Positions 9,363 to 49,015 of a DNA stretch of 64,000 nt are shown here, one piece after another. The number at the start of each line of letters is the position of its first letter. Position 1 is the stretch's first letter. The stretch comes from Deltaproteobacteria bacterium. GTDB lineage: Bacteria > Myxococcota_A > UBA796 > UBA2385. The notes under the pieces are model-generated. The model searched no databases, was not told the origin of the DNA, and saw only the letters and a list, made by a program, of their open reading frames with translations. The position numbers and the translations under genes are program-made. Location of the stretch: the NCBI GenBank assembly GCA_018401435.1, contig JAGYJW010000036.1:1-64000 (forward strand), written 5' to 3'.

Positions 9363-9926
9363 TCAGACCTCGAGGATCTCCTTCTCCTTGCCGGAGGCGA
9401 CCTCATCGAGGGCCTTCGACGCGCTGTCGGTGGCGGCCTGCACCACGTCATTGAGCCGCTTCAGCTCGTCCTCGGAGATCTCCTTCTCGCTCTCCATCTC
9501 CTTGAAGATGTCGAGGTACTCGCGGCGCACCGACCGGGCGCGGACCTTGGCGTCCTCGAGCAGCTTGCGGATGGACTTCACCATGTCGCGGCGCCGCTCC
9601 TCGGTCAGGGCGGGCACGGGCACATGAATCACCTGCCCGTCGTTGCTGGGGTTGAGGCCCAGGCCCGCGGCGAGGATGCCCTTCTCGATGTCGGAGATGG
9701 TGCCCTTGTCCCAGGGGTTGAGGATCAGCAGGCGGGCGTCGGGGGCGCTGATCGTGGCCAGCTGGTTGATGGGCATGCGGCTGCCATAGGCGCTCACATC
9801 CACCGACACATTTTCCAGCAGGCGGGGGCTGGCCCGTCCCGTGCGAATGGAGATCAGCTCGCGCTTGTAGGCCTCTTCCACCTTGGTGAAATCTGCAGCC
9901 ATCGCGTCCAGGTATTCGCTACTCAT
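9363..9926 (-). CDS. frr: ribosome recycling factor
   Basis: With EF-G, splits post-termination ribosomes. 187 aa, normal length. Conserved segments are present: LISIRTGRASPRLLENV, PINQLATISAPDARLLILNPW and the LTEERRRDMVK region. ATG 9926 gives the correct N-terminus (SSEYLDAMAADFTKVEEAYK), although the frame stays open further upstream. It is the fourth gene of the rpsB-tsf-pyrH-frr cluster. Confidence 0.97.
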   Translation of the reverse strand: MSSEYLDAMAADFTKVEEAYKRELISIRTGRASPRLLENVSVDVSAYGSRMPINQLATISAPDARLLILNPWDKGTISDIEKGILAAGLGLNPSNDGQVIHVPVPALTEERRRDMVKSIRKLLEDAKVRARSVRREYLDIFKEMESEKEISEDELKRLNDVVQAATDSASKALDEVASGKEKEILEV

Positions 9927-9963
9927 CTCGCTCCTCTCCCCGGGGCTGGGCCGCAGGCGGGGG

Positions 9964-11392
<1,429 letters not shown>

Positions 11393-11496
11393 GGATGTGC
11401 TCCTCAGCGCTTCGACCTGCGCCGCCAGCCCGCGGGCAGCGGGTGGCGGCGGCGGCGAAGCAGGGGTTTTTTGTTGGGAGAGGTCCGGGAAGCGGA

Positions 11497-12279
11497 TCAG
11501 TCCTGCTGGGCGGCCTCGCCACCCTTGCGGATGATCTCGACATCGCCGACGTCGGCCTGGGACACCACAGCGTCGCCGAGGCTCTCGCGGCTGAGGTTGC
11601 CGCCGTCGAGGACGGCGTCCGCGATGGCCGTGGTGAAGAGCCGGATGCTCTTGATGGCGTCGTCGTTACCCGGGATCACGTGGGCGATGCCGTCGGGGTC
11701 GCAGTTGGTGTCGCAGAGGGCGACGACCGGGATGCCGAGCTTCATGGCCTCGCGCACGGCGATGTGCTCGCGCTTGGGGTCCACCACGAACATGACGCCG
11801 GGGGTGGACTTGGTGTTCTTGATGCCGCCCAGCGACCGGTCCATCTTTTCGATGCGGCGGCTGATGTCGAGGGCCTCCTTCTTGGTGAGGAGGTCCAGAC
11901 GGCCGTCGTCCCGAGCGCGCTCGAGGTTGACGAGGCGGTCGATGGAGCGCTTCACGGTCTGGAAGTTGGTGAGGGTGCCGCCCAGCCAGCGGTTGTTCAC
12001 GTAGAACATCCCGCAGCGCTCGGCCTGCTCCTGCACGATCTCCTGGGCGGAGCGCTTGGTGCCGACGAAGAGGACCGTGCCGCCGCGGGAGACCGTGTGG
12101 GTCACGAAGCGGGTGGCCGCGATGAGCGACCGGGCGGTCTTCTGGAGGTCGATGATGTGGATCCCGTTGCGGTCGCCGTAGATATACGGCTTCATCTTGG
12201 GGTTCCACAGGCGGGTCTGGTGACCGAAGTGCACGCCGGCTTCGAGCAGGTCGCGCAGAGACACGTTGACGTTGGACAT
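11497..12279 (-). CDS. rpsB: 30S ribosomal protein S2
   Basis: Small-subunit ribosomal protein of 260 aa. Conserved segments: [49 protein letters not shown], and the [20 protein letters not shown] region. The start at 12279 ([10 protein letters not shown]) has GGAG-like sequence upstream. It leads the rpsB-tsf-pyrH-frr-uppS-cdsA cluster. A 7-bp perfect hairpin lies 125 bases upstream in its leader. Confidence 0.97.
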
Positions 12280-12403
12280 GGTGGGGGCTCCGGGGTCACG
12301 CTGGACCCGTTCGGGTTGGTTCGTCCGTCGGCGTGCCTCCCAACCCCGTGCATGTCTGCAGTGGGGCACCACCGGGAGAGCGCGTGGCTCCGACGTGAGA
12401 AGT

Positions 12404-12420
12404 CTTCACCTTGGGTGAAG
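12404..12420 (-). promoter_or_regulatory. hairpin in the secA-rpsB intergenic region
   Basis: CTTCACC-TTG-GGTGAAG is a perfect 7-bp inverted repeat with a 3-base loop, upstream of rpsB. It may be part of an rpsB leader (many bacteria autoregulate S2 there) or a second terminator element after secA. No U-tract follows. Confidence 0.4.
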
Positions 12421-12440
12421 CTGCCGCCGGTTAGCCCGGG

Positions 12441-12461
12441 CCGCCTTGTCGGGCAAGGCGG
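12441..12461 (-). terminator. possible secA terminator hairpin
   Basis: CCGCCTTG-TCGGG-CAAGGCGG gives a perfect 8-bp stem 23 bases after the secA stop. It lacks a U-tract, so it may act as a Rho-assisted or weak terminator. It separates secA from the rpsB cluster. Confidence 0.45.
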
Positions 12462-12483
12462 GGGGCGCGCCGGCGGGAGGGGA

Positions 12484-15360
<2,877 letters not shown>

Positions 15361-15485
15361 TTCGTCTCCACGCCGGTCCGTTCGGGGGGGAGCGCGCCAG
15401 GGGGGCGGGCGCGCGGCCACCGGGCCTATGTTGACCCCCCAGAGCGGAGGTCAAGAGGCGATGGACGGCTTTCAGGACGCCCTGG

Positions 15486-16505
15486 CTATTCCAGATACTC
15501 CAGCGGGTCCACCGGCACGCCATCCACCCGAATCTCGTAATGCAGGTGGGGGCCGGTGGTGGCGCCGGTCATGCCCACCGTGCTGATGACCTGCCCTCGC
15601 CTCACCTTCTCGCCCACTGCGACCAGCAGGCGCGCGTTGTGGGCATAGCGGGTCACGATGCCGAAGCCATGATCCACCTCGACCATCCGGCCATAGCCGG
15701 ACTGGAAGTCGGCGGTGACGACGGTGCCCATCGCCGGCGTGACCACCGGGGCGCCCCGGGGCGCGGCGAGGTCGAGGCCGCTGTGGAACTTCCAACGTCG
15801 CGTGAAGGGCGAGCGCCGCCAGCCGAAGCCACTGGTGAGCACCGCACCGGCGACCGGCCAGCCCCGGGGCACGGCATGCTGCATGCTGCGCAGCTCTTCT
15901 GCGACCTCCGCCTGTTGGCCCAGCTCGACCTCGGCCAACTGCAAGGCGGCGAGCAGGCGGTCGGCGCGGCCATCCAGGCTGGCGAGGCCGGCCAGGGGAC
16001 CCGGCGCAAAGGCGAGGCCCGGCAGGTCGGGGTGCTCGTCCATGGGGGCGCCCGCCTCGCCCAGCATGGAAAGGCGGCCCTGGTCCACCACAATCCCCTC
16101 GCCCAGCTGCGCGGCGGCCTCCAGCTCGTCGCTGTCCATGGGCCCGAAGCCCGGCAGCAGCTCGGGGGGCAGGTCTTCGAGCTGGGCGCCATAGAGGCGC
16201 AGGCGCTGCATCTCGCGTTCAACCTGCTCCAGCTTCCCTTCAATCTCACCGATGCGGCCGCGCAGGGCGAGGTTCTCGTCGAGCAAGGCCCGGCGCGACA
16301 GGGTGGTGGGCACCGAGGACGCCATCAGCCCCAGGCCCATGAGCCCGAGGGTGGCCACCGCGACGGCCAGCACCAGCCAGCGGCGCACCGTGGCCAGCGG
16401 GATCGTGATCTGGCGGATCGGCCCCCGCGCCCCTTCGGGCACCACCATCAGGGTGTAGCGGACCTCGCCGACAGGCCCGCTGTCGCGGCGGCGCGGGGCC
16501 TTCAC
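15486..16505 (-). CDS. M23-family (LytM-like) peptidase with membrane anchor and coiled coil
   Basis: Envelope peptidase or amidase regulator of about 339 aa. After RYTLMVVPEGARG comes one transmembrane segment (WLVLAVAVATLGLMGLGLM), a coiled coil (LRGRIGEIEGKLEQVEREMQ), and a C-terminal peptidase M23 domain with zinc ligands in FHSGLDLAAPRG and GPHLHYEI, so the active site looks intact. The start is uncertain: GTG 16505 is in frame just after the PP2C stop, while an ATG at 16574 would overlap PP2C by 53 bases. It probably cleaves peptidoglycan cross-links. It lies downstream of the phosphatase gene. Confidence 0.88.
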   Translation of the reverse strand: MKAPRRRDSGPVGEVRYTLMVVPEGARGPIRQITIPLATVRRWLVLAVAVATLGLMGLGLMASSVPTTLSRRALLDENLALRGRIGEIEGKLEQVEREMQRLRLYGAQLEDLPPELLPGFGPMDSDELEAAAQLGEGIVVDQGRLSMLGEAGAPMDEHPDLPGLAFAPGPLAGLASLDGRADRLLAALQLAEVELGQQAEVAEELRSMQHAVPRGWPVAGAVLTSGFGWRRSPFTRRWKFHSGLDLAAPRGAPVVTPAMGTVVTADFQSGYGRMVEVDHGFGIVTRYAHNARLLVAVGEKVRRGQVISTVGMTGATTGPHLHYEIRVDGVPVDPLEYLE

Positions 16506-16521
16506 CGAGGCGGCCGCCGCA

Positions 16522-17286
16522 TCAGGGGGCCTCGTCGATGCGGGCCACCACCACGGTGACGTTGTCGTCACCACCGCGCTCGCAGGCGAGATCGATCAGG
16601 CGCCGGCAGGACTCTTGCGGGCCGAAATCCAAGGTGGCCTCGCCGATTTCGCCGGTCTCCACCAGGTTGGAGAGCCCGTCGGAGCAGAGGACATAGCGGT
16701 CGCCGCGGCGGATGGCGCGCACCTGGATGTCGATCTCCACATCCTCCATATAGCCGAGGGAGCGCGTGATGATATTCTTGAGCTTGTGGTTCTTGGCCTC
16801 TTCGGGGGTGAGCAGGCCGGCCTTGATCTTCTCGTTGACCAGCGAGTGGTCCTCGGTCAGCTGTTCGATGCGGCCGTCGCGCACGAGGTAGCCCCGCGAG
16901 TCGCCCACATGGGCCACGAAGGCGTTGCCGCCTTCGACCAGCAAGGCCAGGGCGGTGGTGCCCATGCCCTTGTATTCGGGCTCCTCCTTGGCCTTGTCGA
17001 AGATGCGCTTGCCCGCGAGTCGGATGGCGTAGCGCAGCTTCTCGCGGGTCAGCTCGACGGGGCCATCGTCGCCTTCGACACCGAGCTGTTCGGGCAGCAG
17101 CTCCATGGAGCTGAGCACCTCTTCGACGGTGTTCACGGCGATGGCGCTGGCGAACTCTCCACCGGCATGGCCACCCATTCCGTCGCAGACCACAAAGAGG
17201 TTCAGCTCATCGTTGATGAGGTAATTGTCCTCGTTGTTGGTGCGCTTGACACCGACATCCGTCGTGCCACAAGACGTGATGCGCAT
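16522..17286 (-). CDS. PP2C-type serine/threonine protein phosphatase
   Basis: Metal-dependent protein phosphatase of 254 aa (PrpC/Stp type) that would reverse Hanks-type kinase phosphorylation. All metal-binding motifs are visible: VGVKRTNNEDN, FVVCDGMGGHAGGEFAS, GMGTTALALL, VAHVGDSRGYL, VLCSDGLSNLV and ERGGDDNVTVVVAR. The start at 17286 (MRITSCGTTDVG) follows the family. A pseudokinase is encoded elsewhere in the window at 43 kb, but nothing links the two directly. Confidence 0.94.
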   Translation of the reverse strand: MRITSCGTTDVGVKRTNNEDNYLINDELNLFVVCDGMGGHAGGEFASAIAVNTVEEVLSSMELLPEQLGVEGDDGPVELTREKLRYAIRLAGKRIFDKAKEEPEYKGMGTTALALLVEGGNAFVAHVGDSRGYLVRDGRIEQLTEDHSLVNEKIKAGLLTPEEAKNHKLKNIITRSLGYMEDVEIDIQVRAIRRGDRYVLCSDGLSNLVETGEIGEATLDFGPQESCRRLIDLACERGGDDNVTVVVARIDEAP

Positions 17287-17380
17287 GGGGGCTCCGGGGT
17301 CAGGGGCAACCAGGTAGACAGCAGCCCAAGCGGCTAACCCAGCGGGCCCGGCTGCGTCCAGAGCCCGCGGGAGCGCCCGC

Positions 17381-18223
17381 TCAGTCAAGATCCTCGTTGC
17401 TCGCCCCATCCGGCAGACATGCGGCCAGGGTGATCCACTGGTCGAGATCGAGCACCGCCGGACGCGCGGTGGGATCGAGTCCGGCCTCGGCCAGGGCCTG
17501 ATCGACCCGTTCGCGCGGCCAGTCGGCGGACAAGGGGTTGCGAATGGACTTGCGCGGCGAGGCGAATGCCGACCGCACCACCCGCTCGAGGTGAGCGGGG
17601 CGAACCGGGCCGCTGTGGGGCTTTGGCAGCAGGTCCAGGCGAATCACCGAGGAGTGCACCTTGGGCGGCGGGTGGAAGGCCCCGGGGGGAACCGACAGCA
17701 CCACCTGCCCCTTTGCCCGGGCCTCCACATAGACGCTCAAAGAGCCCCGACGGCGATCCCCAGCCGGCGCCACCATGCGCTCTGCGACCTCTTTCTGGAG
17801 CATCAGCACCAGCTTGTCCAGGCGCTCGGGGTGGGCCAGCAGGTGGGTGGTGATGGTGGTGCCCACGTTGTAGGGCAGGTTGGCGACGCAGGCCCAGCCC
17901 GAACCTTCGAGCAGCGCGCCGAAGTCCAGCTTCGCGGCGTCGGCCTCGACCACGGTGAGCTTCTCGTGGTGGCCCAGGCGGTCGCGCAAGAAGGCGGCCA
18001 GGTCGCGGTCGAGCTCCACGGCGAGGACCTCGGCCCCCTCCTCCAGCAGCAGCTCTGTGAGACCGCCCAGCCCTGGCCCGATCTCGAGCACGCGGGGCGC
18101 GGGCCCCAGCTCGGCGGCGGCCACGATGCGCCGCAGCACGCCCTCGGAGGCCAGGAAGTGCTGCCCGAAGCGCTTGCGGGCACGCCCCTGAAGCTCCTTG
18201 AGCAGGTGGGAGGGGTGCTTCAT
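17381..18223 (-). CDS. rsmA: 16S rRNA dimethyladenosine transferase (KsgA)
   Basis: Uses S-adenosylmethionine to dimethylate A1518 and A1519 of 16S rRNA during late 30S maturation. 280 aa. Motifs: RKRFGQHFLASEGVLRRIV, the SAM-binding EIGPGLGGLTELLL, and catalytic VANLPYNVGT. Its ATG overlaps the tsaD stop as ATGA, so the two are coupled. Confidence 0.96.
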   Translation of the reverse strand: MKHPSHLLKELQGRARKRFGQHFLASEGVLRRIVAAAELGPAPRVLEIGPGLGGLTELLLEEGAEVLAVELDRDLAAFLRDRLGHHEKLTVVEADAAKLDFGALLEGSGWACVANLPYNVGTTITTHLLAHPERLDKLVLMLQKEVAERMVAPAGDRRRGSLSVYVEARAKGQVVLSVPPGAFHPPPKVHSSVIRLDLLPKPHSGPVRPAHLERVVRSAFASPRKSIRNPLSADWPRERVDQALAEAGLDPTARPAVLDLDQWITLAACLPDGASNEDLD

Positions 18224-19236
18224 GGGGTGCCCGGGGTCCAGGCGGCGCGCGCCGTGGTGCTCAGGGGGTCGGACTGCCCGCGAAGGTGCCGCAGCCGGCC
18301 CACATGGGCGATCATCGATCCGTTGTCCGTACAGCGAATTCGGGGCGGAATACAGGCTTCTACGCCGTCAATTGCCGCGATTCGTTCCCGAAGGCGGCTG
18401 TTGGCCGCCACGCCGCCCCCGATGGCCACCCGCCGGATGCCCGTTCGGGCCATGGCCGCCTCGACGCGCCCGCAGAGCACGTCCACCACGGCCTCCTGGA
18501 AGGAGGCGCAGACGTCGGCATCGCTGGCGCGGTCGGGGGCTTCGAGGTGCTGCCGCACGGCGGTCTTCAGCCCCGAGAAGCTCATGTCCAGCTCGGAGCG
18601 GGCCACCGCCTGGCGGCGCCGGCTGACGGTGGACAGGGGGCGCGGGTTGGGCCGGGGGAAGGCCACCGCGTCGGCGCGGCCCTGCCGGGCCAGGGCGTCG
18701 ACCGGGGGGCCGCCGGGGTAGCCCAGGCCCAGCATGCGGGCGACCTTGTCATAGGCCTCGCCGGCCGCATCATCGATGGTCTGGCCGAGAATCTCGTATT
18801 GGCCGACATCCTGGGCGAGATAGAGGGTGCTGTGTCCCCCCGAGACCACCAGGGACAAGAAGGGAAAGGCCGGAGCCGGGTCTTCCAACAGGGGGGCCAG
18901 CAGGTGGGCCTCGAGGTGGTTGACCGCGATGAAGGGCACCCCCCAGCCCGCCGCGAGGGCCTTGCCCATGCAGAAGCCCACCAGCACCGCGCCGAGCAGC
19001 CCGGGGCCGGCGGTGGCGGCGACCGCGTCGGGGCGCGCGATGCCCGCCTCTTCGAGGGCCGCGCGCACCGTCACCACCACCTTGTCGGCGTGGGCCCGGC
19101 TGGCCAGCTCGGGCACGACGCCGAGGTAGCGGGCGTGCACCCCCTGGCTGTGAATCACATCCGAGAGCACCCCGGCGCCATTGACGACGGCGGCGGCGGT
19201 CTCATCGCAGGAGGTCTCGATGCCGAGCACATTCAC
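18220..19236 (-). CDS. tsaD: tRNA N6-threonylcarbamoyladenosine transferase TsaD
   Basis: Catalytic ASKHA-fold subunit that transfers threonylcarbamoyl to A37 of ANN-decoding tRNAs. 338 aa. Conserved: LGIETSCDETAAAVV, the metal-binding HLEAH within NHLEAHLLAP, LVVSGGHSTLY, IDDAAGEAYDKVARML, and AIGGGVAANSRLR. Its partner tsaE is encoded at 47 kb. It lies 73 bases downstream of the selenocytochrome gene. Confidence 0.97.
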   Translation of the reverse strand: MNVLGIETSCDETAAAVVNGAGVLSDVIHSQGVHARYLGVVPELASRAHADKVVVTVRAALEEAGIARPDAVAATAGPGLLGAVLVGFCMGKALAAGWGVPFIAVNHLEAHLLAPLLEDPAPAFPFLSLVVSGGHSTLYLAQDVGQYEILGQTIDDAAGEAYDKVARMLGLGYPGGPPVDALARQGRADAVAFPRPNPRPLSTVSRRRQAVARSELDMSFSGLKTAVRQHLEAPDRASDADVCASFQEAVVDVLCGRVEAAMARTGIRRVAIGGGVAANSRLRERIAAIDGVEACIPPRIRCTDNGSMIAHVGRLRHLRGQSDPLSTTARAAWTPGTP

Positions 19237-19309
19237 AGGGGCCCCGGGGGCGAAAGCAGCAGGCGCTTCCAGCCCCTAATGCGCTGGCGGCCGGCCCACC
19301 CCAGGCGGC

Positions 19310-20896
19310 TCACAAGGCCGGGTCCGCCGGGTCCGGGCTCGTGGGGTGATGGCGCACCTTGTCCATATAGGCGTCGAGCTGGAAGCGCCCCTCGTCCCGC
19401 ACGCCGTCGTGGCATTGAATGCAGGCGGTGGCGGGGGGCGTGCGAAGCAGCGGGCTGCCCGCGGGGTCCGAGACATGGGCGCGGCCCGGCCCGTGGCAGG
19501 ACTCGCAGCCCACCGACCGCAAGGCCTCGTGCACCACCTCGCCGGCCTGGGGACCCTCGGGGTGGAAGGCGCCGGTGACATGACAGCCCGCGCAATCCTG
19601 GTCCTGGGTGCGGGCCTGGCCCACCAGCGAGGCCCAGGCCCGGGCGTGGGCGGTGGTGGCCCACTGGGTGGCGGGGCCGACATGGCAGCCGCTGCAGACC
19701 TGGCTGCCCACGAAGGGGCCATTCAAGGCGGCCGCGGGGCCGACCGCCACCGGCGCGGCGGCGGCTTCGATCTCGGCCTTGGCCGCATCCAGCAAGGCCG
19801 CGGTGGCGGCGTGATCCAGAACCTCGACATCCAGCCCCAACAGCTCGTTTTCGATGAGGTGTGAGGGTGCGGCCTGGGGGGTGCGCGCCGCCGCGATCAA
19901 GGACTCCAAGCGGCCGATATCCCCGTCATAGAAGCCCACGCGCTGCCTGGCGCGGGCCTGGGCGGCATCGCCCTCGGCGGCGGCGGCGTCTTCCACCGCC
20001 TTCTCGCGGCGGCCGCGGGCGCGGGCCAGCTGCCGTTCCAGATCGTCGAGATCGCCCCCGGATGCGAAGCCCTGCCCACCCGGCTGCAGCTGGATGCGCG
20101 CCAGGCCCAGCAGCTTGCCCCGGGTACCCGCGGCCAGCTGCAATGCGGCCTCGGGCAGGGCCTTGGGCGGGTGGGTGGTGGCGCCGATTCCAGCGTTGAC
20201 CACAAGGTCAAGGGCCGGCACGGCGGCCGCGAGGGCCTCGTCCAGGCTGGGATCCTGGTGGCTGAGCAGCACCACGAGGTCCACCGCATCGAGCCCGGCC
20301 AGGGCGGCCGTCAGCGCGACCGCCGGCGCCGTGGCCTCGCACCCGGCAGGCAGGGTCTCGCCCTCACCGAGGATGCCGAGAATTGCGACCGACACGCCAT
20401 CCTTGTCGATGCGACGCAGCGGCGGAAAAGGCGTCTGCCCGCCACAAAGCAGGTTGCTGGTCACAAAGGGGGCGCCGGTGCGGGTGGCCTCGGCCTGCAG
20501 CCAGTCCAGGCCAAGGGCGAGATCACCGTCTCCGGGCGTCATGCCATCGATGCCCACCAGGGTGAAGGCATCCAGCTGGAGCTGGGCCTTGCGGCGCTGC
20601 TGGGGCAGGCGGTCGTCGGGGAGCACGCCGCCCTTCCAGGCAAAGTCGCCCGCGTCTACTACAAAGACCGGGGCGCCCTTGGCGCGCTCCGTCTCGATGG
20701 CCGTGTTGCGTCGGGGCAGACCGCCCTGAGGGTGTTTCGGTCAACCACAGGGTTCGATGTCGCCGTTGACATTGTTCTGGTAGGCCAGGACCACCGCGCG
20801 GGCCGCATCGGTGGCCACCGGAGGGGTCGGGGGTGCTGCGGCCTCGTCTGCGCAGCCCAGCAGGGCCAAGGCAGCTGCGGGAATCCAGGCCTTCAT
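19310..20896 (-). CDS. metallophosphoesterase/tetraheme cytochrome c lipoprotein; probable selenoprotein (TGA at codon 52)
   Basis: Predicted 528-aa outer-membrane or periplasmic lipoprotein. The start ATG 20896 overlaps the DUF4340 stop as ATGA. Residues 1-15 form a lipoprotein signal (AALALLGC, Cys15). Residues about 34-260 resemble the UshA/5'-nucleotidase-like metallophosphoesterase domain: AYQNNVNGDIEPCG, then an in-frame TGA (20743-20741), then PKHPQGGLPRR, VFVVDAGDFAW and APFVTSNLL. The C-terminal third has four c-type heme sites (CSGCH, CAGCH, CESCH, CIQCH). From memory, relatives have EPCGC at the TGA site, so selenocysteine is the expected reading. A SECIS-like hairpin follows. Without readthrough only a 438-aa fragment from GTG 20626 remains, lacking the signal and the motif. 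Function is unknown; a redox or phosphoesterase role in the envelope is inferred. Confidence 0.82.
20711..20743 (-). promoter_or_regulatory. selenocysteine TGA codon and SECIS-like hairpin
   Basis: The TGA is at 20743-20741. After 18 bases, a stem GGGC (20726-20723) and GCCC (20717-20714) closes the 5-base loop GGTCT (20722-20718). Below it are one A-C mismatch and two more pairs (C-G, T-A). From memory, the E. coli fdhF SECIS presents GGUCU in its apical loop, also 18 bases after its UGA. The element lies within codons that encode the conserved GGLPRR segment, as bacterial SECIS elements do. Confidence 0.78.
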
Positions 20897-22398
20897 GGCT
20901 GTCCTTCGGGCGGGAGCGCGTCGCCTTCGCCCGAGGCGCTGGGGATGCGCTCGCGGCGGGCGGCCTTGTCGGCGTCGGCCTCGGCCTTGCGGTTGCCCTC
21001 GCGGATCAGGTCCTTGATGACATTGAGGCTGCGGTCGCTGACCAGGTAGACGGCGGGGTCGCCCTCGATGGCGGCATAACGCCGGGCGTGCTCCCGGCCT
21101 TCGGGGTCCACTTCGGGCGCCCCCGTGCTGCCGATCAGCACCACGCGCTCATTGCCATCCTTGTCAGCCAGGACCGCCCGGGCCAGCGGATCGGCCAGGC
21201 CATAGGCCGAGAGGTCGGTGGGGGCGTCCTCGACAAAGGCGTCCACCTCCAGCTCGGCCAGGGTGCGGGCCACCCGCTCTGGGGTGCTGCCGGGCACGGG
21301 CACGCCGTCCTTCCACAGCCACTGCTCAGCGGCGAATCGAACGCCGTGCTCCCCCTTGAGATCGTCGGTGCCATCGGCCTTCAGCGAGGCATCCACGCTC
21401 ACGACATCGGCCGTGGCCAGGCTGACCACGCGGCGGTTGCGCAGCTCGGCCGGATCTTGGCTGAACTCTTCAAGAAGGCCGCGCCGGGCGACATAGACGG
21501 TGTCGTCGCCCTCCAGCATCATATAGGCCAGCTCCTCGAAGCGGTTGTCCGCGGGGCTGTCCTGTCCCACCAGCACATGCAGCGGCTCGCGGCTGGCAAA
21601 GCGCACGGTGATGTCGGCCCGGGGCGGGTTCAGCCCGTAGTCCACCAGGCGCTGGGCCCGGTCGGCGTCGGTCAGCGTCATGAAGTCGCTGGCCTTCAGG
21701 GCGCTCACCCGCCCCAGCAGGCGACGCACCCGGTCGTCGTTGGCGCCCATCTGGGTGGGCGCGTGCATCTGCCACTCGTTGTCGCCCACCCGCTCGATGT
21801 CCAGGACGAGGTCGCCGCCCTCCTGGCGGAGGGTGGCCTGGATCCGGGTGGCGTCCTTGCTGTCGAAGCTCGCAAAGCGGCGCTCGCGGAACTCGTCCAG
21901 GGTGAGGCTATAGTAGTCCACCGCAGCCTTCTTGACCGTGTAGACCACCGACCCCGGCAGCGGCTGGATGTAGTAGCTGACGGACGAGGGGTTGGGGTCG
22001 CCGGCGAGGAAGGCCATCTCCTTGCCATCGCGCATCTGCAGCTTGACCTGCGTGGCGTTCTTGCCCAGGCCATAAAGCTCGGGCTGTTCGGGGTCTTCGA
22101 CCACCGTGGCCCGCGCGGTCAGGTCGTGGATCTGGTGCTTGACCCGGTTGACCATGCTGCGGCCCGCCGTGAAGTCGGTGCCCTCAATGGTCCACTGGCC
22201 GTCTTTCTCAGCCAGGGCGATCACGTCGCCGTCGGGCCTTGCGACCTCGATGCGCACCAGCTCGTGCTTCTCGAACTGAAAGAGCCGCGGCGGGCCCTCG
22301 GGGCCGTCGCTGAGCAGATCCGGCCGGAGCAGCAGCACCGCTCCCACCAGCAGAAGCAGCGCCACGGCTGCGATGAGCGTCCCACGAAAGGCCTTCAA
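20893..22398 (-). CDS. DUF4340-domain protein of a Gld-type ABC system
   Basis: Protein of 501 aa with one N-terminal transmembrane segment (LIAAVALLLLVGAVLLL) and repeated extracytoplasmic DUF4340-like modules (LVRIEVARPDGDVIAL, WTIEG, LYGLG, and LVDYGLNPPRADITVRF). The start is TTG at 22398, overlapping the GldG-like stop as TTGA and preceded by an excellent GAGGAGG; the next codons (KAFRGTL) begin the membrane anchor. DUF4340 proteins commonly follow GldG-like genes. The exact function is unknown; it probably acts with the ABC-2 transporter in the envelope. Confidence 0.88.
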   Translation of the reverse strand: MKAFRGTLIAAVALLLLVGAVLLLRPDLLSDGPEGPPRLFQFEKHELVRIEVARPDGDVIALAEKDGQWTIEGTDFTAGRSMVNRVKHQIHDLTARATVVEDPEQPELYGLGKNATQVKLQMRDGKEMAFLAGDPNPSSVSYYIQPLPGSVVYTVKKAAVDYYSLTLDEFRERRFASFDSKDATRIQATLRQEGGDLVLDIERVGDNEWQMHAPTQMGANDDRVRRLLGRVSALKASDFMTLTDADRAQRLVDYGLNPPRADITVRFASREPLHVLVGQDSPADNRFEELAYMMLEGDDTVYVARRGLLEEFSQDPAELRNRRVVSLATADVVSVDASLKADGTDDLKGEHGVRFAAEQWLWKDGVPVPGSTPERVARTLAELEVDAFVEDAPTDLSAYGLADPLARAVLADKDGNERVVLIGSTGAPEVDPEGREHARRYAAIEGDPAVYLVSDRSLNVIKDLIREGNRKAEADADKAARRERIPSASGEGDALPPEGQP

Positions 22399-23876
22399 CG
22401 CCCCCTCCTCGACATCCAGGTCCCGATCCCCATCAGCAGCACCATCACCGGCATCAAGCCGATGGTGAGGAGCCGGAGCAGGCCCAGCTCCTGTTGGGTG
22501 AGGGCCAGGCGCCGGGCCGCCGTGGACTTGCCCACGGTGCCGACGGTGACGCCCAGGCGGCGGTCTTCACCGGCCAGCCAGTGAAAGACGTTGACGGCGA
22601 AGAGCCGGTTGCCCGGCGCCTCTGCGAGCAGCGCGTTGGTGAAGGCGTCGCCGTCGCCAATCACGAAGACCCGGGCGGCGGGCTTGCCGGGGCGCACCAG
22701 GCCCTGGCCGGCCAGCAGATCGAGGGCCACCGCCAGGTTGACCGGACCCTGAATGTCGATGCCAGGCTCATAGACAGCGCCGCCCCCCTGCAGGGCCCCG
22801 CCCAGGTCGATCCAGCCGTCCCGGGTGGTGGTCAGCACCATGGTCGCCCGCACGCCCTGGGGCAGCGGGTCCACGACCCCCACGGGCGCGGGGTGGGCCA
22901 GCACCGTCACCAGCTTCTCTTCGAGCAGCTCGGTGGTGATGGGGTGGCTGCGGTAGACCGGGATGGGGCGGTCCCGGTAGGGCACCTGCATCTCGGGCTG
23001 AAGGGCCACGCCGTCCGGGATGCCGACGCCCATGCGGCCGAGCAGCTCGGGCACGGGGCGCCCGACATCCATGGCAAAGAGCACAGAGCCTCCGCGCCCG
23101 ATCCAGGCCAGCAGGCTGTCCTGTTCCTGGGCGGTCAGGGGCTCTTTGGGGCGGGCGACCACCACCACGGCCGCATCGTCGGGAACCACCGGCAGGCCGC
23201 CCTCGCGGTCGCTGCGCAGCAGGTCCAGGGTCTCGACGTCGTAGCGCTCCTGGTCCAGCGCCACGACCAGATCCGACAGGCCCGAGGGGGTGCGGTCTTC
23301 GGGGCTCAGCTCGCCATGTCCGGTCAGCACATAGATGGTGCGCCGGCTGGGGTTCATCAGCTGCGAAAACGCCCGGCTGATCGCCGGCTCTCCGACAAAT
23401 TCCAGAGAACGGTCCTTTCCCTTGCCCACCCGGCGGAACAGCTCCCGGTCCTTGATGTCGACGCGCTCGTCCCCGCGCTGGATGACGACGCGACCATAGT
23501 CGTTGACGCCGAGGCTCTCGGCGGTCAGCCGCTCCTTGTCGAAGTCCACCTGCCGCCACTCCACCATGGTGCTCTGCTCGCCCAGCTCGCGCAGCAGGTC
23601 CTTGATGGAGCGGTCCTTGAAGTAGGCGTCGTCTTTGCCCCGCTGGTTGCTGAAGGCGGTGATGGTGACGGGCCGGGCATCCTGGTCCAGCAGTGCCAGC
23701 TTCTGTACCGTCTCGGCTTGCAGCGTGTTGGAGGCACCCTCGCTGAGATCGACGCGCCAGCGGTACTTGTCGGCCAGCAGATAGCAGAGCACCAAGGCCC
23801 CGATGACCATCACGGTCACCAGAGAGGCGTTGCTGCCATAGGCCAGCAGGCGGCGGGTGGACTGCTTCACGACCAT
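22395..23876 (-). CDS. GldG-like ABC transporter auxiliary protein
   Basis: Protein of 493 aa with an N-terminal transmembrane segment (LVTVMVIGALVLCYLLA), a long periplasmic region resembling the GldG / ABC_transp_aux domain (YVLTGHGELSPEDRTPSG, LLRSDREGGLPVVPDDAAVV, LLAWIGRGGSVLFAMD), and a C-terminal transmembrane helix (LTIGLMPVMVLLMGIGTW). The start at 23876 overlaps the permease gene by 10 bases. In Bacteroidota GldG works with GldA and GldF; in Myxococcota homologues the role is unsettled. Confidence 0.88.
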   Translation of the reverse strand: MVVKQSTRRLLAYGSNASLVTVMVIGALVLCYLLADKYRWRVDLSEGASNTLQAETVQKLALLDQDARPVTITAFSNQRGKDDAYFKDRSIKDLLRELGEQSTMVEWRQVDFDKERLTAESLGVNDYGRVVIQRGDERVDIKDRELFRRVGKGKDRSLEFVGEPAISRAFSQLMNPSRRTIYVLTGHGELSPEDRTPSGLSDLVVALDQERYDVETLDLLRSDREGGLPVVPDDAAVVVVARPKEPLTAQEQDSLLAWIGRGGSVLFAMDVGRPVPELLGRMGVGIPDGVALQPEMQVPYRDRPIPVYRSHPITTELLEEKLVTVLAHPAPVGVVDPLPQGVRATMVLTTTRDGWIDLGGALQGGGAVYEPGIDIQGPVNLAVALDLLAGQGLVRPGKPAARVFVIGDGDAFTNALLAEAPGNRLFAVNVFHWLAGEDRRLGVTVGTVGKSTAARRLALTQQELGLLRLLTIGLMPVMVLLMGIGTWMSRRGR

Positions 23877-24580
23877 CTCCTCGACTCGATCGAGCGCCAG
23901 GTCAAGAAGAGGAAGCCGAAGGTGAAGAGCCCGAACCAGGCCAGGTGCGCGGTGTCGATGACCCCCCGGGTGAAGGGCTCGATATGGGTCAGGAAGGACA
24001 GCTCCCGCAACGCGTTGCGGGCCCACTCGGCCTCGACCATATCGGCCGCCGCCCCCGAAATCCAGAAGGGCAGCAGGATGAGCACCCCGCCCAGGCCCGC
24101 GGCCACGGGCTCATTGGTGAGGCTGGACGAGAAGAGCCCGGCCGCCACGAAAGCAAAGCAGCACAGGAACAGGCCCAGGTAGCTGGTGGCCACCACACCC
24201 CAGTCCGGGTCGCCATAATAGGCGAGCACCATGGGGAAGATGGCCGTCCCCCCCAGCAAGATGGCGCAGAGGGCCACGCTGGCGGCCCACTTGCCGGCCA
24301 GGAGCGCCCACAGGGGCACCGGCGCGGTCATCATCAGCTCGAAGGTGCCGCTGCGGCGCTCTTCTGCGAAGTGCTTCATGGTGAGCAGGGGCAGCAGGAA
24401 GAGCAGGGTCACCGACAGGTTGCCCAGCATGACGCGCAGGCTGGCCTCCCCCGTCAGGGTGATGCCCATATAGAAGAAGAGCCCCGCCAGAAAGAGGAAG
24501 ACGCCAAGAAAGACGTAGGCGAGCGGGCTCACGAAGTAGACCCGCATCTCCTTCTTGAAGATGGACCAGGCGATGGGCAT
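23867..24580 (-). CDS. ABC-2 type permease (GldF-like)
   Basis: Inner-membrane transporter subunit of 237 aa with six hydrophobic segments. It opens with AWSIFKKEMRVYFVSPLAYVF, typical of GldF-like ABC-2 permeases, and has MKHFAEERRSGTFELMMTAP, the common cytoplasmic loop motif. It follows the ATPase gene by 15 bases and overlaps the GldG-like gene, so the four proteins are probably made together. Confidence 0.92.
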   Translation of the reverse strand: MPIAWSIFKKEMRVYFVSPLAYVFLGVFLFLAGLFFYMGITLTGEASLRVMLGNLSVTLLFLLPLLTMKHFAEERRSGTFELMMTAPVPLWALLAGKWAASVALCAILLGGTAIFPMVLAYYGDPDWGVVATSYLGLFLCCFAFVAAGLFSSSLTNEPVAAGLGGVLILLPFWISGAAADMVEAEWARNALRELSFLTHIEPFTRGVIDTAHLAWFGLFTFGFLFLTWRSIESRRWS

Positions 24581-24595
24581 GGGTGTCGAGGCTCC

Positions 24596-25534
24596 CTACT
24601 TCTCGCGGCCGACGATGGCGAGGAAGGCCTCTTCGAGGCTGGGGACGTGGCGCTCCATGGCGCGAATCTGCCAGGAGTGCGCGGTTGCGAGGCCGGCGAT
24701 GGCGGTGCGGGGGTCGGCGGGGGCGCGCACCTCCAGCATCGAGAAGCCCTCGGACCGGGACAGCGGCTTGACCTGCTCGACCTCGGGCAGGGCGCCCACC
24801 TTGGCGGCGAGCAGCGTGTCGTCCAGGCCCTCCCCCCGAAGCTCGATGCGGTAGCGCAGGCCATGGCCCGCGCGCTCGCGCACCGCGTCCAGGGTGCCGT
24901 CGGCCACCACGCGCCCCTTGGCCACCATGACGATGCGCTGGCAGAGCAGCTCGACCTGGGGGAGGATGTGGGTGGAGAGGATGACGGTGCGGTCCTGCGC
25001 GAGATTGCTGATGTAGTCGCGGATCCCGACCATCTGCGCGGGATCGAGACCGGAGGTGGGCTCGTCGAGGATGAGCACCTCGGGGTCGTGAACCACCGCC
25101 TGGGCGAGGCCCACCCGCTGGCGGTAGCCCTTGGACAAGGAGCCCAGGATGCGGCCCTCCCAGCCCGACAGGCCCACCTTCTCCATCACCTCACCCACCC
25201 GCCGGCTGCGGGTGCTGCGCGGCACCCCGCGAATCTCAGCGATGAAGTGCAGATAATCCCCGATGGTGAGCTCGGGATATAACGGCGGCGTCTCGGGCAG
25301 GTAGCCAACCTTGCGGCGCACCTGCATGGTCTCTTCAAAGACATCGTGCCCGGCCACCACGCAGCGGCCTTCGGTGGCCGGCAGGAAGCCCGTCAGCATG
25401 CGCATGGTGGTGGTCTTGCCCGCGCCATTGGGCCCGATGAAGCCCAACAGCTCGCCCTTCTCCACCTCGAAGGAGACCTTGTCGACGGCCAGCAGGCTGC
25501 CGTAGCGCTTGGTCAGGCTCTGGGCCGAGATCAT
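24596..25534 (-). CDS. ABC transporter ATP-binding protein (GldA-like)
   Basis: ATPase subunit of 312 aa. Walker A is GPNGAGKT near residue 37, the Q-loop region follows (GYLPETPPLYPELTI), the ABC signature reads LSKGYRQR, Walker B is VLILDEP, and the H-loop is STHIL. A C-terminal extension of about 90 residues (DTLLAAKVGALPEVEQVKPL) matches DUF4162-like tails. The start at 25534 (MISAQSLTKRYG) is the family start. It is the first gene of a five-gene minus-strand operon ending with the putative selenocytochrome. Confidence 0.94.
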   Translation of the reverse strand: MISAQSLTKRYGSLLAVDKVSFEVEKGELLGFIGPNGAGKTTTMRMLTGFLPATEGRCVVAGHDVFEETMQVRRKVGYLPETPPLYPELTIGDYLHFIAEIRGVPRSTRSRRVGEVMEKVGLSGWEGRILGSLSKGYRQRVGLAQAVVHDPEVLILDEPTSGLDPAQMVGIRDYISNLAQDRTVILSTHILPQVELLCQRIVMVAKGRVVADGTLDAVRERAGHGLRYRIELRGEGLDDTLLAAKVGALPEVEQVKPLSRSEGFSMLEVRAPADPRTAIAGLATAHSWQIRAMERHVPSLEEAFLAIVGREK

Positions 25535-25637
25535 GGCGGGCTCGAGGAGGTGGCAGGCGACGAGAGGGCGGCGCCTGAGACTTCGATGTGTAATGGGTCC
25601 GCCCAGGCTGGTAAAGGGGAGCCCTCGGAGCCGACCC
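25535..25637. promoter_or_regulatory. divergent intergenic region
   Basis: Just over 100 bases lie between the ABC operon and the SurA-like gene and must hold promoters for both. I see no confident -35/-10 pair or large palindrome. Confidence 0.3.
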
Positions 25638-29628: not shown

Positions 29629-30396
29629 TCAGCGCAGGCCGTAGTAGGAGTCGAGCAGGGTCACGCCGATATTGCAGGCGGCGTGAAAGAGCGCCCCTGC
29701 CACCACCCCGCCGCTGCGCTCCCGCAGCCAGGCGAAGGCCATGCCCGGAAAGAAGGTGGCAAAGTGCCACCACTGCAGGCTCACCACCGAGTGGCCAAAG
29801 GCGAAGAAGAGGCCGGCGATGACGGCCCCCCACCCCATGGGCACGCCGAAAATGAGCCACCGGCGCGGAAAGACCTCGTTCAGCCGCGTCTGGAAATAGC
29901 CGCGATAGAAGAACTCTTCGGGGATGGCCACGAAGAAGAGCTGGTAGGCCACCAGCACCAGCAGGTCTTGGGGCAGGCCATGACCGGGCGCGGCGCCAAA
30001 GAGGCGGGTCTGGTAGACGTGGTAGCCGACAACAAAGGGCATCGCGACCAGCAGGCTGAGGCCCCCGGCAAGCACCAGGGCCTCCTTCCAGGCCCGCAGG
30101 TCCCGAAAGGCCGGAATGCTCAGCCGGTAGGACCAGGAGTCCACCCCGCGCAGCCGGCAGAGCAGGACCGGCGCATAGATGAAGAGCAGGGGAACCGCCG
30201 CCAGCACCCAGTCCGGCAGGCCCAGATCCGAGACGGCGACCACGCCACGAATGAGCAGCAAGGTGACCAGCCACAGGCCGAGCAGCTCGAGCAGGACCGG
30301 CCGTGGCCGCGCGTCGGGGTCGACGCGATCCCCTCGCTCTACAGGGCGTGGGACAGGCGCCCCCGCTGGTAGCCGAGGAGATCCAGGGTCACCCAC
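29629..30396 (-). CDS. CPBP-family glutamic intramembrane protease (myxosortase candidate)
   Basis: Polytopic membrane protease of about 255 aa. The three CPBP motifs are present: PEEFFYRGYF (EExxxR), FAFGHS, and LFHAACN (HxxxN). The start GTG 30396 has GGAGGG with about 6-base spacing inside larE; no other in-frame ATG or GTG precedes the first membrane segment. In Myxococcota some CPBP proteases (myxosortases) process MYXO-CTERM tails; a protein with such a tail is encoded about 0.9 kb away. Linking the two is an inference. Confidence 0.85.
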   Translation of the reverse strand: MGDPGSPRLPAGAPVPRPVERGDRVDPDARPRPVLLELLGLWLVTLLLIRGVVAVSDLGLPDWVLAAVPLLFIYAPVLLCRLRGVDSWSYRLSIPAFRDLRAWKEALVLAGGLSLLVAMPFVVGYHVYQTRLFGAAPGHGLPQDLLVLVAYQLFFVAIPEEFFYRGYFQTRLNEVFPRRWLIFGVPMGWGAVIAGLFFAFGHSVVSLQWWHFATFFPGMAFAWLRERSGGVVAGALFHAACNIGVTLLDSYYGLR

Positions 30397-31184
30397 GCAA
30401 AGCCCTCCGCCTGACAGACCTCGACGATGGATTCGCGCACCCCGGCTTCGACGAGTCGAGGGAGCTCGTCGGGGTGGACTTCGAGGCGGACCAGCGGCCG
30501 GCCCTCCAGCTCATGCCAGCGCGCCCGGAACTGCCGCAGCCCGAGCAGGCGCAGGTAGCTCTCCACCTTCTGCACCTGCCGGATGCGGGTGACCGTCACC
30601 CGGGTGCCCACCGGAAAGCGGCTGCCCAGGCAGGCAAAGGCGGGCTTGTCCCAGACGGTCAGCCCATAGCGGCGGGCGGCCTCGCGCACCGTGGCCTTGT
30701 CGAAGCCGGCCTCCACCAAGGGGTGGCGCACGGCCTTTTCAGCGGCGGCCTGCAGACCCGGCCGGTGGTCGCCCAGGTCGTCGGTGATGGTGCCATCGGC
30801 CACCCAGGGGATGTCGAGCTGCTGCGCGGTGCGCCGGGCCAGCGAGAAGAGCTCGGTCTTGCAGAAATAGCAGCGGTTGCCGGCGTTCTGCGCGTAGCCC
30901 TCTTGTTCCAGCTCGGTGGAGTCCACGATGACGTGCTGCAGGCCCAGCGCGTCGGCGATGCGACGGGCCTCGGCCAGCTCTTCGGGGGGGAAGGTCGGCG
31001 AATCCGCGGTCAGGGCCACGGCCCGATCACCCAGCACCTCGCCGGCCACGCAGGCCACCAGGGCCGAGTCCACCCCGCCCGAGAAGGTGACCAGCACCTG
31101 GCCCATCTCGCCGAAGATCGCCCGCAGGCGGTCCAGGGCGAGGTCAACCGCGTCGGGGGTCGGGGCGCTGGCAACGATGCTCAT
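30339..31184 (-). CDS. larE: ATP-dependent sacrificial sulfur transferase LarE
   Basis: PP-loop enzyme of 281 aa. In known LarE the protein donates sulfur to the pyridinium-dithiocarboxylate nickel cofactor. The PP-loop is LVTFSGGVDSALVA. NRCYFCKTELF and FACLGSRFPVGTRVT carry the Cys residues; the latter matches the sacrificial Cys region. larB, larC and larA are not in the window, so it may be an orphan. Its 3' end overlaps the CPBP protease gene by 58 bases. Confidence 0.9.
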   Translation of the reverse strand: MSIVASAPTPDAVDLALDRLRAIFGEMGQVLVTFSGGVDSALVACVAGEVLGDRAVALTADSPTFPPEELAEARRIADALGLQHVIVDSTELEQEGYAQNAGNRCYFCKTELFSLARRTAQQLDIPWVADGTITDDLGDHRPGLQAAAEKAVRHPLVEAGFDKATVREAARRYGLTVWDKPAFACLGSRFPVGTRVTVTRIRQVQKVESYLRLLGLRQFRARWHELEGRPLVRLEVHPDELPRLVEAGVRESIVEVCQAEGFAWVTLDLLGYQRGRLSHAL

Positions 31185-47503: not shown

Positions 47504-48092
47504 CGCCCCCCGCTTTCGGCGTCCGGGCCGCGCCCCTCCCGAGGTGGCGGGTCGGCTGCGGGCCATGGCGCTGCTGCTGGCCTTGGCGGCGGGCATGCTG
47601 GCGGCCACCCGCCTGTTCAGCCCGGCCCCCGCGCCCCCGCCCGAACGCCGGGTGGTCGAGGTGCGCGGCGCGGTCCCGCAGCCCGGCTTTCACGCCCTCG
47701 CCGGGCCCCTCACCGTGCACGCGGCCTTGCGGGCCGCCGGGGCCGACCCAGCCGGCCAGGTGGACGCCGCCTTGTCGCCGGGCACCCGCATCCGGCTGTC
47801 CGAGGCCGGCGAGCTGCGCTTGGAGCCCATGGACGACCTGCTGGTGGTGGGCCTGCCGGTCGACATCAACCGTGCCAGCGCCCGGGCCCTCACCGCGATC
47901 CCCGGCATCGGCGACCGCCGGGCAGCCGACATCGTGGCCAGCCGCGACGCCGACGGCCCCTACCGCTCCGTGGACGACCTGGCCCGGGTCAAGGGCATCG
48001 GCCCGGCAACCGTCGAGGATCTCCGCCCCTTTCTGGTGGCGGGCCCAGCCGATCAGGCGGCGTCCACCACCCGCAGCGCGCGCGCCCCCTGA
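47493..48092 (+). CDS. ComEA-like helix-hairpin-helix protein
   Basis: Protein of about 199 aa: transmembrane segment (ALLLALAAGMLAATRLF), SLBB-like segment (VVEVRGAVPQPGFHAL) and a C-terminal tandem helix-hairpin-helix (VDINRASARALTAIPGIGDR then DDLARVKGIGPATVEDL). In competence systems ComEA binds DNA in the periplasm. The TTG start at 47493 has GGAGGG 7 bases upstream; ATG 47448 is an alternative. Convergent with truB, overlapping 40 bases. Confidence 0.82.
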   Translation: MAADAPRFRRPGRAPPEVAGRLRAMALLLALAAGMLAATRLFSPAPAPPPERRVVEVRGAVPQPGFHALAGPLTVHAALRAAGADPAGQVDAALSPGTRIRLSEAGELRLEPMDDLLVVGLPVDINRASARALTAIPGIGDRRAADIVASRDADGPYRSVDDLARVKGIGPATVEDLRPFLVAGPADQAASTTRSARAP

Positions 48093-49015
48093 TCCTCCAG
48101 AACGGCCAGGGCCAGCAGCTCTTCGCCGCCCATCACCCGGTATCGGCCGCCCAGCTCCACCCCGGCCGGCGGGCCGGGCACGCCGCCGCCGCTGCGCACC
48201 CGGGCGCGCAGGGCCTCGGGCACATCCACGGCGGGCAGGTGATCCAGGGCTTGGGCGGGGCTGAGCAGCCAAGGCATCAGCTCGCGCCGCACCAGGTCCC
48301 GGGGCCGCCAGGGCATGCGCTCGGCGCCGCGGGCCGGCCGCAGCACCTTGCGCCAGTCGGGGTCGCCGCTCACAATCTCCGACAGGCGCGGGAAGTCCAG
48401 GGCGGCGGACTCCAAGAAGGGGCCGCTGCGCAACCGGCGCAAGGCCGACAGGTGACCGGCGCTGCCCAGGGCCTCGGCGATCTCGACCGCCAGCACCCGC
48501 GCATAGGTGCCGCGCCCGCAGTGGATCTCCACGCGCAGCCAGTCGGGCCCCCGATCGACCAGGTCGATGCGGTCGATGCGAATGGGCCGGGCGGCGGCCT
48601 CCACCTCTTCTCCGGCGCGGGCATAGGCGTAGAGCGGGCGGCCGTTGACCTTGACCGCGCTGTGGCGGGGCGGCACCTGCTGCCGGATGCCAGCAAAGCC
48701 CGCCAGGACATCGAGGATGCGGGCCTCATCCAAGTCCGGAATGGGCGCAGTACGCCCGATCTCGCCGGTTGGGTCGCCGGTGTCCGTCTCGGCCCCCAGC
48801 TGGATGGTGGCGTCGTAGATCTTGACGCCCTCGTCCAGGTACTGGATCAGCCGGGTCGCCGGACCCAGGGCCAGGGGGAGCACGCCGGTCGCAAAGGGAT
48901 CGAGGGTGCCGGTGTGGCCCACCTTCTTGATGCCGAGCACCGCACGCAGCACCGCCACCACATCGTGGCTGGTGATGCCCACCGGCTTGTCCATCACCAG
49001 GAAGGCGGGCTTCAC
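48053..49015 (-). CDS. truB: tRNA pseudouridine(55) synthase
   Basis: Forms pseudouridine at position 55 of the T-loop. 320 aa. The catalytic Asp lies in VGHTGTLDPFATGVLPLALG, with RHSAVKVNGRPLYAYAR and VEIHCGRGTYARVLAVEI following. The start is GTG 49015, overlapping rbfA's stop as GTGA, which matches the usual rbfA-truB pairing. Confidence 0.96.
   Translation of the reverse strand: MKPAFLVMDKPVGITSHDVVAVLRAVLGIKKVGHTGTLDPFATGVLPLALGPATRLIQYLDEGVKIYDATIQLGAETDTGDPTGEIGRTAPIPDLDEARILDVLAGFAGIRQQVPPRHSAVKVNGRPLYAYARAGEEVEAAARPIRIDRIDLVDRGPDWLRVEIHCGRGTYARVLAVEIAEALGSAGHLSALRRLRSGPFLESAALDFPRLSEIVSGDPDWRKVLRPARGAERMPWRPRDLVRRELMPWLLSPAQALDHLPAVDVPEALRARVRSGGGVPGPPAGVELGGRYRVMGGEELLALAVLEDQGARALRVVDAA

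Follow-up and report, generated by a model that had tools for sequence, protein, structure and literature searches.

A divergent myxococcotal member of the UshA-like selenoprotein family NF041198, with a putative Cys-Gly-Sec site and four hemes

The PCGU gene described here carries an in-frame TGA at codon 52 that, judging from comparison with its relatives, is almost certainly read as selenocysteine. Its product newly joins a known selenoprotein family, NCBIfam NF041198, as a divergent member, and is not the first of a new family. The gene lies in a 64,000-nucleotide stretch of contig (hereafter the window), and its features are listed in Table 1. To the catalogued family we add the observation that the metal-binding and catalytic residues of its phosphoesterase-like domain have been lost family-wide, while the PCG[U/C] motif and all four heme motifs are invariant. 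The analysis also adds a class of uncultured Myxococcota to the known range of this catalogued but uncharacterized family.

Table 1. Features of the PCGU locus (positions in the window).
Feature	Position	Strand	Basis or remarks
UshA-like PCGU selenoprotein gene (predicted)	19310..20896	-	ATG start, Sec52, TGA stop, 528 residues
Lipoprotein signal peptide, lipobox ALLG-C15	20849..20896	-	Sequence; such signals in nearly all relatives
P49-C50-G51-Sec52 motif	20741..20752	-	Sec codon TGA 20743-20741; invariant PCG[U/C] in alignments A1 and A2
SECIS-like hairpin	20711..20729	-	Nt 12-18 pair with nt 24-30 after UGA, one A-C mismatch
Linker helices and remainder of the UshA/SoxB/5'-nucleotidase-like domain, whose metal site is degenerate	19730..20740	-	Fold, metal-site mapping, AlphaFold2
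Tetraheme cytochrome c554-like domain	19409..19696	-	PF13435, E 4.9e-11
CxxCH motifs	19696-19682, 19594-19580, 19507-19493, 19423-19409	-	Invariant in alignments
tsaD, conserved downstream neighbor	18220..19236	-	PF00814; beside or close to the PCGU gene in most of the relatives examined from the same order and class
Conserved upstream block: ABC ATPase, ABC-2 permease, GldG-like ABC_transp_aux/DUF4350 protein, DUF4340 protein	20893..25540	-	

Reading frame and family

When the TGA is read through, the frame translates without any other internal stop, and codon 52 sits in the context DIEPCG-TGA-PKHPQGGLPRR, as the initial annotation had described. Its other claims about the gene also agree with the sequence: the start codon shares an ATGA (20896-20893) with the TGA stop of the DUF4340 gene upstream, the lipoprotein signal (ALLGC, with Cys15) comes before the TGA, and the four CxxCH motifs come after it. 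The longest table-11 ORF does start at GTG 20626 and encodes 438 aa, without the signal peptide and the PCGU motif, and plain ORF calling in these genomes would drop both the signal and the presumed active motif. Against the Sec-form relatives, amino-acid identity averages 48 per cent over residues 29-51 and 40 per cent downstream of the TGA, and third-position changes are in excess both before and after it. By these comparisons, the sequence on either side of the TGA is protein-coding in one frame. General recoding of TGA in this genome was considered and excluded, because TGA is the ordinary stop of both the PCGU gene and its upstream neighbor.

The best-matching family was NF041198 (UshA_like_PCGU), with 261.8 bits (E = 1.1e-77) over positions 19-514 of the 519 in the model, against a curated cut-off of 275. 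Relatives from the same class exceed this cut-off, with scores up to 355 bits, and form one group with the PCGU gene in the tree. NF041198 has been entered as an 'UshA-like (seleno)protein' with the motif CxU (PMC13188914), and an UshA-like (COG0737) CxU selenoprotein family was described from the GOS ocean metagenomes in 2008 (PMC2398784). The suggestion in the initial annotation that this is a new selenoprotein therefore falls, since the family had already been catalogued as a CxU selenoprotein family. The PCGU protein shares with NF041198 a near-full-length architecture, the CxU motif with Sec second (PCG[U/C], ending in Sec or Cys), and a C-terminus with four CxxCH hemes. It differs in scoring just below the cut-off and in its place within a clade of Myxococcota that has a neighborhood of its own (ABC transporter, DUF4340, tsaD). 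A second family, NF049981 (UshA_like_Sel_2), likewise has an UshA-like N-terminal region and contains Sec, but its motif is CxxU (PMC13188914) and its model has 262 positions; the PCGU protein reaches only 21.5 bits against its cut-off of 140 and is not a member. Our literature searches on PCGU, on selenoproteins of Myxococcota, and on selenoproteins combining a metallophosphoesterase with a cytochrome found nothing relevant.

Conservation of the TGA codon

Of fifty-two loci that were read, forty-three (including the window) have PCG-TGA and eight have PCGC. A single-sequence search of the contig collection gave no match; the alignment-based search succeeded, returning twenty-five further named Sec-form contigs as well as many Cys forms. 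Many of these Sec-form contigs come from other phyla, among them Thermodesulfobacteriota, Acidobacteriota, Krumholzibacteriota, Eiseniibacteriota, Rokuibacteriota, and Planctomycetota. In total, sixty-eight different genomes or contigs have TGA at the PCGU position. Because the TGA recurs at the identical codon in forty-two relatives and in the twenty-five additional contigs, it is not there by chance. In nearly every TGA-form genome among the relatives, the best NF041198 match holds exactly one TGA.

Within the Sec clade, position 52 is never a Cys or Trp codon. More distant homologs, and a paralog in the same genome on contig C133, have Cys there (PCGC), in line with the EPCGC that the initial annotation gives for similar proteins. 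With the sel genes also present (see below), none of the three results that the initial annotation named as refuting its Sec reading was seen. The codon thus behaves as expected for a bacterial selenoprotein, with an in-frame UGA that aligns with Cys in homologs and is kept as UGA in relatives. In the tree, the forty-three TGA forms of this class make up one supported group (SH-aLRT 97), and the C133 paralog joins two other Cys forms outside it. This paralog (47557-48984 of the contig) is full length and tetraheme, so Sec and Cys forms coexist in one genome. As a separate observation, shorter UshA-like matches with one or two in-frame TGA codons occur in some relatives (L074, at G074:C3:3536-4654, and similar matches in G083, G087, and G091). 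These extend from the start of the model only to positions 376-392, leaving the heme part unmatched, and are further Sec candidates.

SECIS-like hairpin and Sec machinery

A SECIS-like hairpin is predicted directly behind the UGA. Its loop, GGUCU, occupies nt 19-23 after the UGA (20722-20718), and both the loop sequence and its distance from the UGA are identical to those of E. coli fdhF; the bulge base U17 of the fdhF SECIS is A in the PCGU gene, which counts against our account. GGTCT is found at nt 19-23 in forty of forty-one distinct sequences (the lone exception is GGACT), and in most of this order it is flanked by a GGGC/G(U,C)CC stem. In other families of the same class, nt 15 and nt 24 covary, and the stem can slip by one step with nt 15 bulged. 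Counting from the U of UGA, G23 is invariant and U24 is present in 40/41 distinct sequences, and these two loop positions have been reported to be conserved sites of SelB recognition (PMC8659212). The loop thus has G23/U24 just 3' of the UGA, as expected for a selenoprotein gene. Among the distant Sec forms, G23/U24 occur at this spacing in 12/25.

Codon usage within the hairpin is also constrained. The glycine codon at +7 is GGT in 42/43 Sec forms and in 0/8 Cys forms, compared to 12 per cent of glycines elsewhere in these genes. Across twenty-four conserved fourfold-degenerate columns, third-base entropy is lowest at the two hairpin glycines (0 and 0.18; range of the others, 0.83-1.94). As read from the aligned codons, the constraint on the hairpin acts on nucleotides, beyond that on the amino acids, which makes this a clean comparative case of selection at the nucleotide level on a bacterial SECIS within coding sequence. 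Single-sequence RNA folding after the TGA gave an unexceptional energy (z from -0.44 to 0.15), and we therefore treat folding as neutral on SECIS and use the comparative codon evidence in its place. A search of the window at Rfam gathering cut-offs returned no match.

The source genome is a draft of 7.13 Mb in 204 contigs (94.9 per cent complete). It contains all four Sec genes, the check that the initial annotation had proposed: selC (tRNA-Sec, 62.5 bits against the Rfam cut-off of 47; called by ARAGORN as tRNA-SeC with anticodon tca, i.e. UCA) and, by profile search and above cut-off, selA (496 bits), selB (277 bits, 615 aa), and selD (262 bits). They lie on contigs other than that of the PCGU gene; in a draft with an estimated contamination of 6.25 per cent this weighs against our interpretation, though their GC content (73-74 per cent) is similar to that of the window (71 per cent). 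Three relatives with only Cys forms (G077, G082, and G086) lacked both selA and an above-cut-off tRNA-Sec. Conversely, fourteen draft TGA-form relatives have no visible selC (thirteen with the TGA at the PCGU locus, and G005 with it at a paralog), and selA or selA fragments are present in 12/14.

Fold, metal site, and hemes

We used two alignments, one of forty-three sequences from the relatives' loci (A1) and one of forty-nine from the collection-search loci (A2). An AlphaFold2 model built from A2 (mean pLDDT 88, pTM 0.84) has the fold of 5'-nucleotidases and SoxB among its PDB matches in Foldseek, and a profile search agrees. The dimetal ligands of the UshA/5'-nucleotidase family (DxH, GD, GNH(E/D), H, GHxH) are largely missing: in the PCGU protein, motif I has D42N and H44N, NHE of motif III is DGD, and GHxH of motif V is GIG, leaving Asp84 and His213 as the only metal ligands. 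The description as a metallophosphoesterase thus stands for the fold and not for the activity, since with the metal-site residues lost phosphoesterase activity is unlikely.

The same positions vary widely across the Sec-form rows of both alignments (36 in A1 and 27 in A2); the motif I His is kept in only 1/36 and 1/27, and Asn-His-Glu of motif III is mostly Glu-x-Asp. P49, C50, G51, and Sec/Cys52 are invariant across A1 and A2, as are the heme residues. In the model, PCGU comes soon after strand 1 (residues 33-40), beside the former metal site. The PCGU protein therefore shares its fold with the 5'-nucleotidases UshA and CD73 and with the thiosulfohydrolase SoxB, but has largely lost their metal and catalytic residues and has gained PCG[U/C] and hemes. 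The tetraheme cytochrome domain proposed in the initial annotation is supported by the PF13435 match and the four CxxCH motifs. It resembles cytochrome c554 in its c-type heme motifs and in the sequence around CESCHGPG, but in the PCGU protein it is a domain fused to an UshA-like lipoprotein.

Alternative explanations and proposed function

We considered whether the TGA might really terminate translation, stem from a sequencing error, or mark a decayed gene, with translation restarting at GTG 20626. The 438-aa ORF obtained by plain table-11 calling is what this reading would produce. It is very improbable, however, given a TGA shared by so many genomes, constraint on both sides of it and in the SECIS, and the presence of the sel genes, and the restart product would be a c-type cytochrome without an export signal. 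As far as sequence allows, we regard it as refuted.

Two other explanations accept Sec insertion and differ in what the residue does. Cys50 and Sec52 could serve the structure of the protein or its hemes (as a heme ligand, as a cross-link, or in assembly), with the UshA-like domain only binding a ligand or a partner protein. The invariance of PCG[U/C] together with all four heme motifs would fit such a role, as would the co-occurrence of both domains in nearly all members read; against it, Cys forms are found in organisms without a Sec system, as for redox selenoproteins, and Sec is costly and generally retained for redox chemistry. We consider this role unlikely. Less likely still is that the domain remains a metal-dependent hydrolase, perhaps one resembling SoxB or one that hydrolyzes nucleotides, with Cys50/Sec52 as metal ligand or nucleophile. 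The nucleotidase/SoxB fold speaks for it, and some members do retain Asp42 (in A2, 13/27 Sec-form rows), the Asp of motif II, or a His of motif IV/V. The motif I His, however, is almost never retained and motif III is mostly altered; in the PCGU protein itself Asn replaces both motif I ligands and motif V has lost its histidines, and being fused to four hemes points to a redox role.

We favor a redox enzyme because the metal ligands vary while PCG[U/C] and the hemes are invariant, and because PCGU lies beside the former metal site. The most probable account as a whole, held with some reserve, is a UGA-decoded Sec in an exported lipoprotein whose pseudo-phosphoesterase domain has become a heme-wired Cys/Sec oxidoreductase of the envelope. 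UGA codon 52 would be decoded by the genome's own SelA/B/C/D, directed by the hairpin right behind it, and the product would be exported as a lipoprotein on the cell envelope. There, the 5'-nucleotidase-like domain would carry the invariant Cys-Gly-Sec on the loop after strand 1 in place of the residues that held two metals. The Cys50/Sec52 pair may cycle between thiol/selenol and selenenylsulfide, exchanging electrons with the fused four-heme domain, and by analogy to SoxB, which has the same fold, the substrate is probably a sulfur compound or a peroxide. A redox mechanism with a Cys-Gly-Sec center connected to four hemes is moderately supported; the redox function, the electron transfer between the two domains, and the substrate class are inferred. 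The two metal ligands that the PCGU protein still has, Asp84 and His213, count against this account.

Loss of the metal site beside a CxU motif and four hemes, all invariant, suggests a testable function for the family. More tentatively, the whole family may have given up the dimetal hydrolase site of the 5'-nucleotidase fold and acquired a Cys-Gly-Sec redox site linked to four c-type hemes. If true, this would be a type of enzyme in which a phosphoesterase scaffold carries a cytochrome-coupled selenol oxidoreductase, and we found no characterized example of it.

Gene neighborhood

In most same-order relatives examined, genes for an ABC ATPase, an ABC-2 permease, a GldG-like protein, and a DUF4340 protein are followed by the PCGU gene, tsaD, rsmA, PP2C, an M23 peptidase, and secA. 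This conserved order points to vertical inheritance, and we read no shared function from it. At the more distant loci, clustering of neighbors gave no common functional partner; by eye, DUF1573-like, DUF4159-like, and RarA-like genes appear in single lineages only. Homologs outside the class often adjoin a DUF1573-like gene (L122, L126, L131, L137, L160, L161, L162, and L166, also by eye). In the window, the block extends over 9363-25540 as frr-pyrH-tsf-rpsB-secA-M23-PP2C-rsmA-tsaD-[PCGU gene]-DUF4340-GldG-like-ABC permease-ABC ATPase and is kept in much of the order. A putative LarE-like (sacrificial sulfur transferase) gene, recognized from its sequence only, lies at 30339-31184 and is near the PCGU locus in some relatives.
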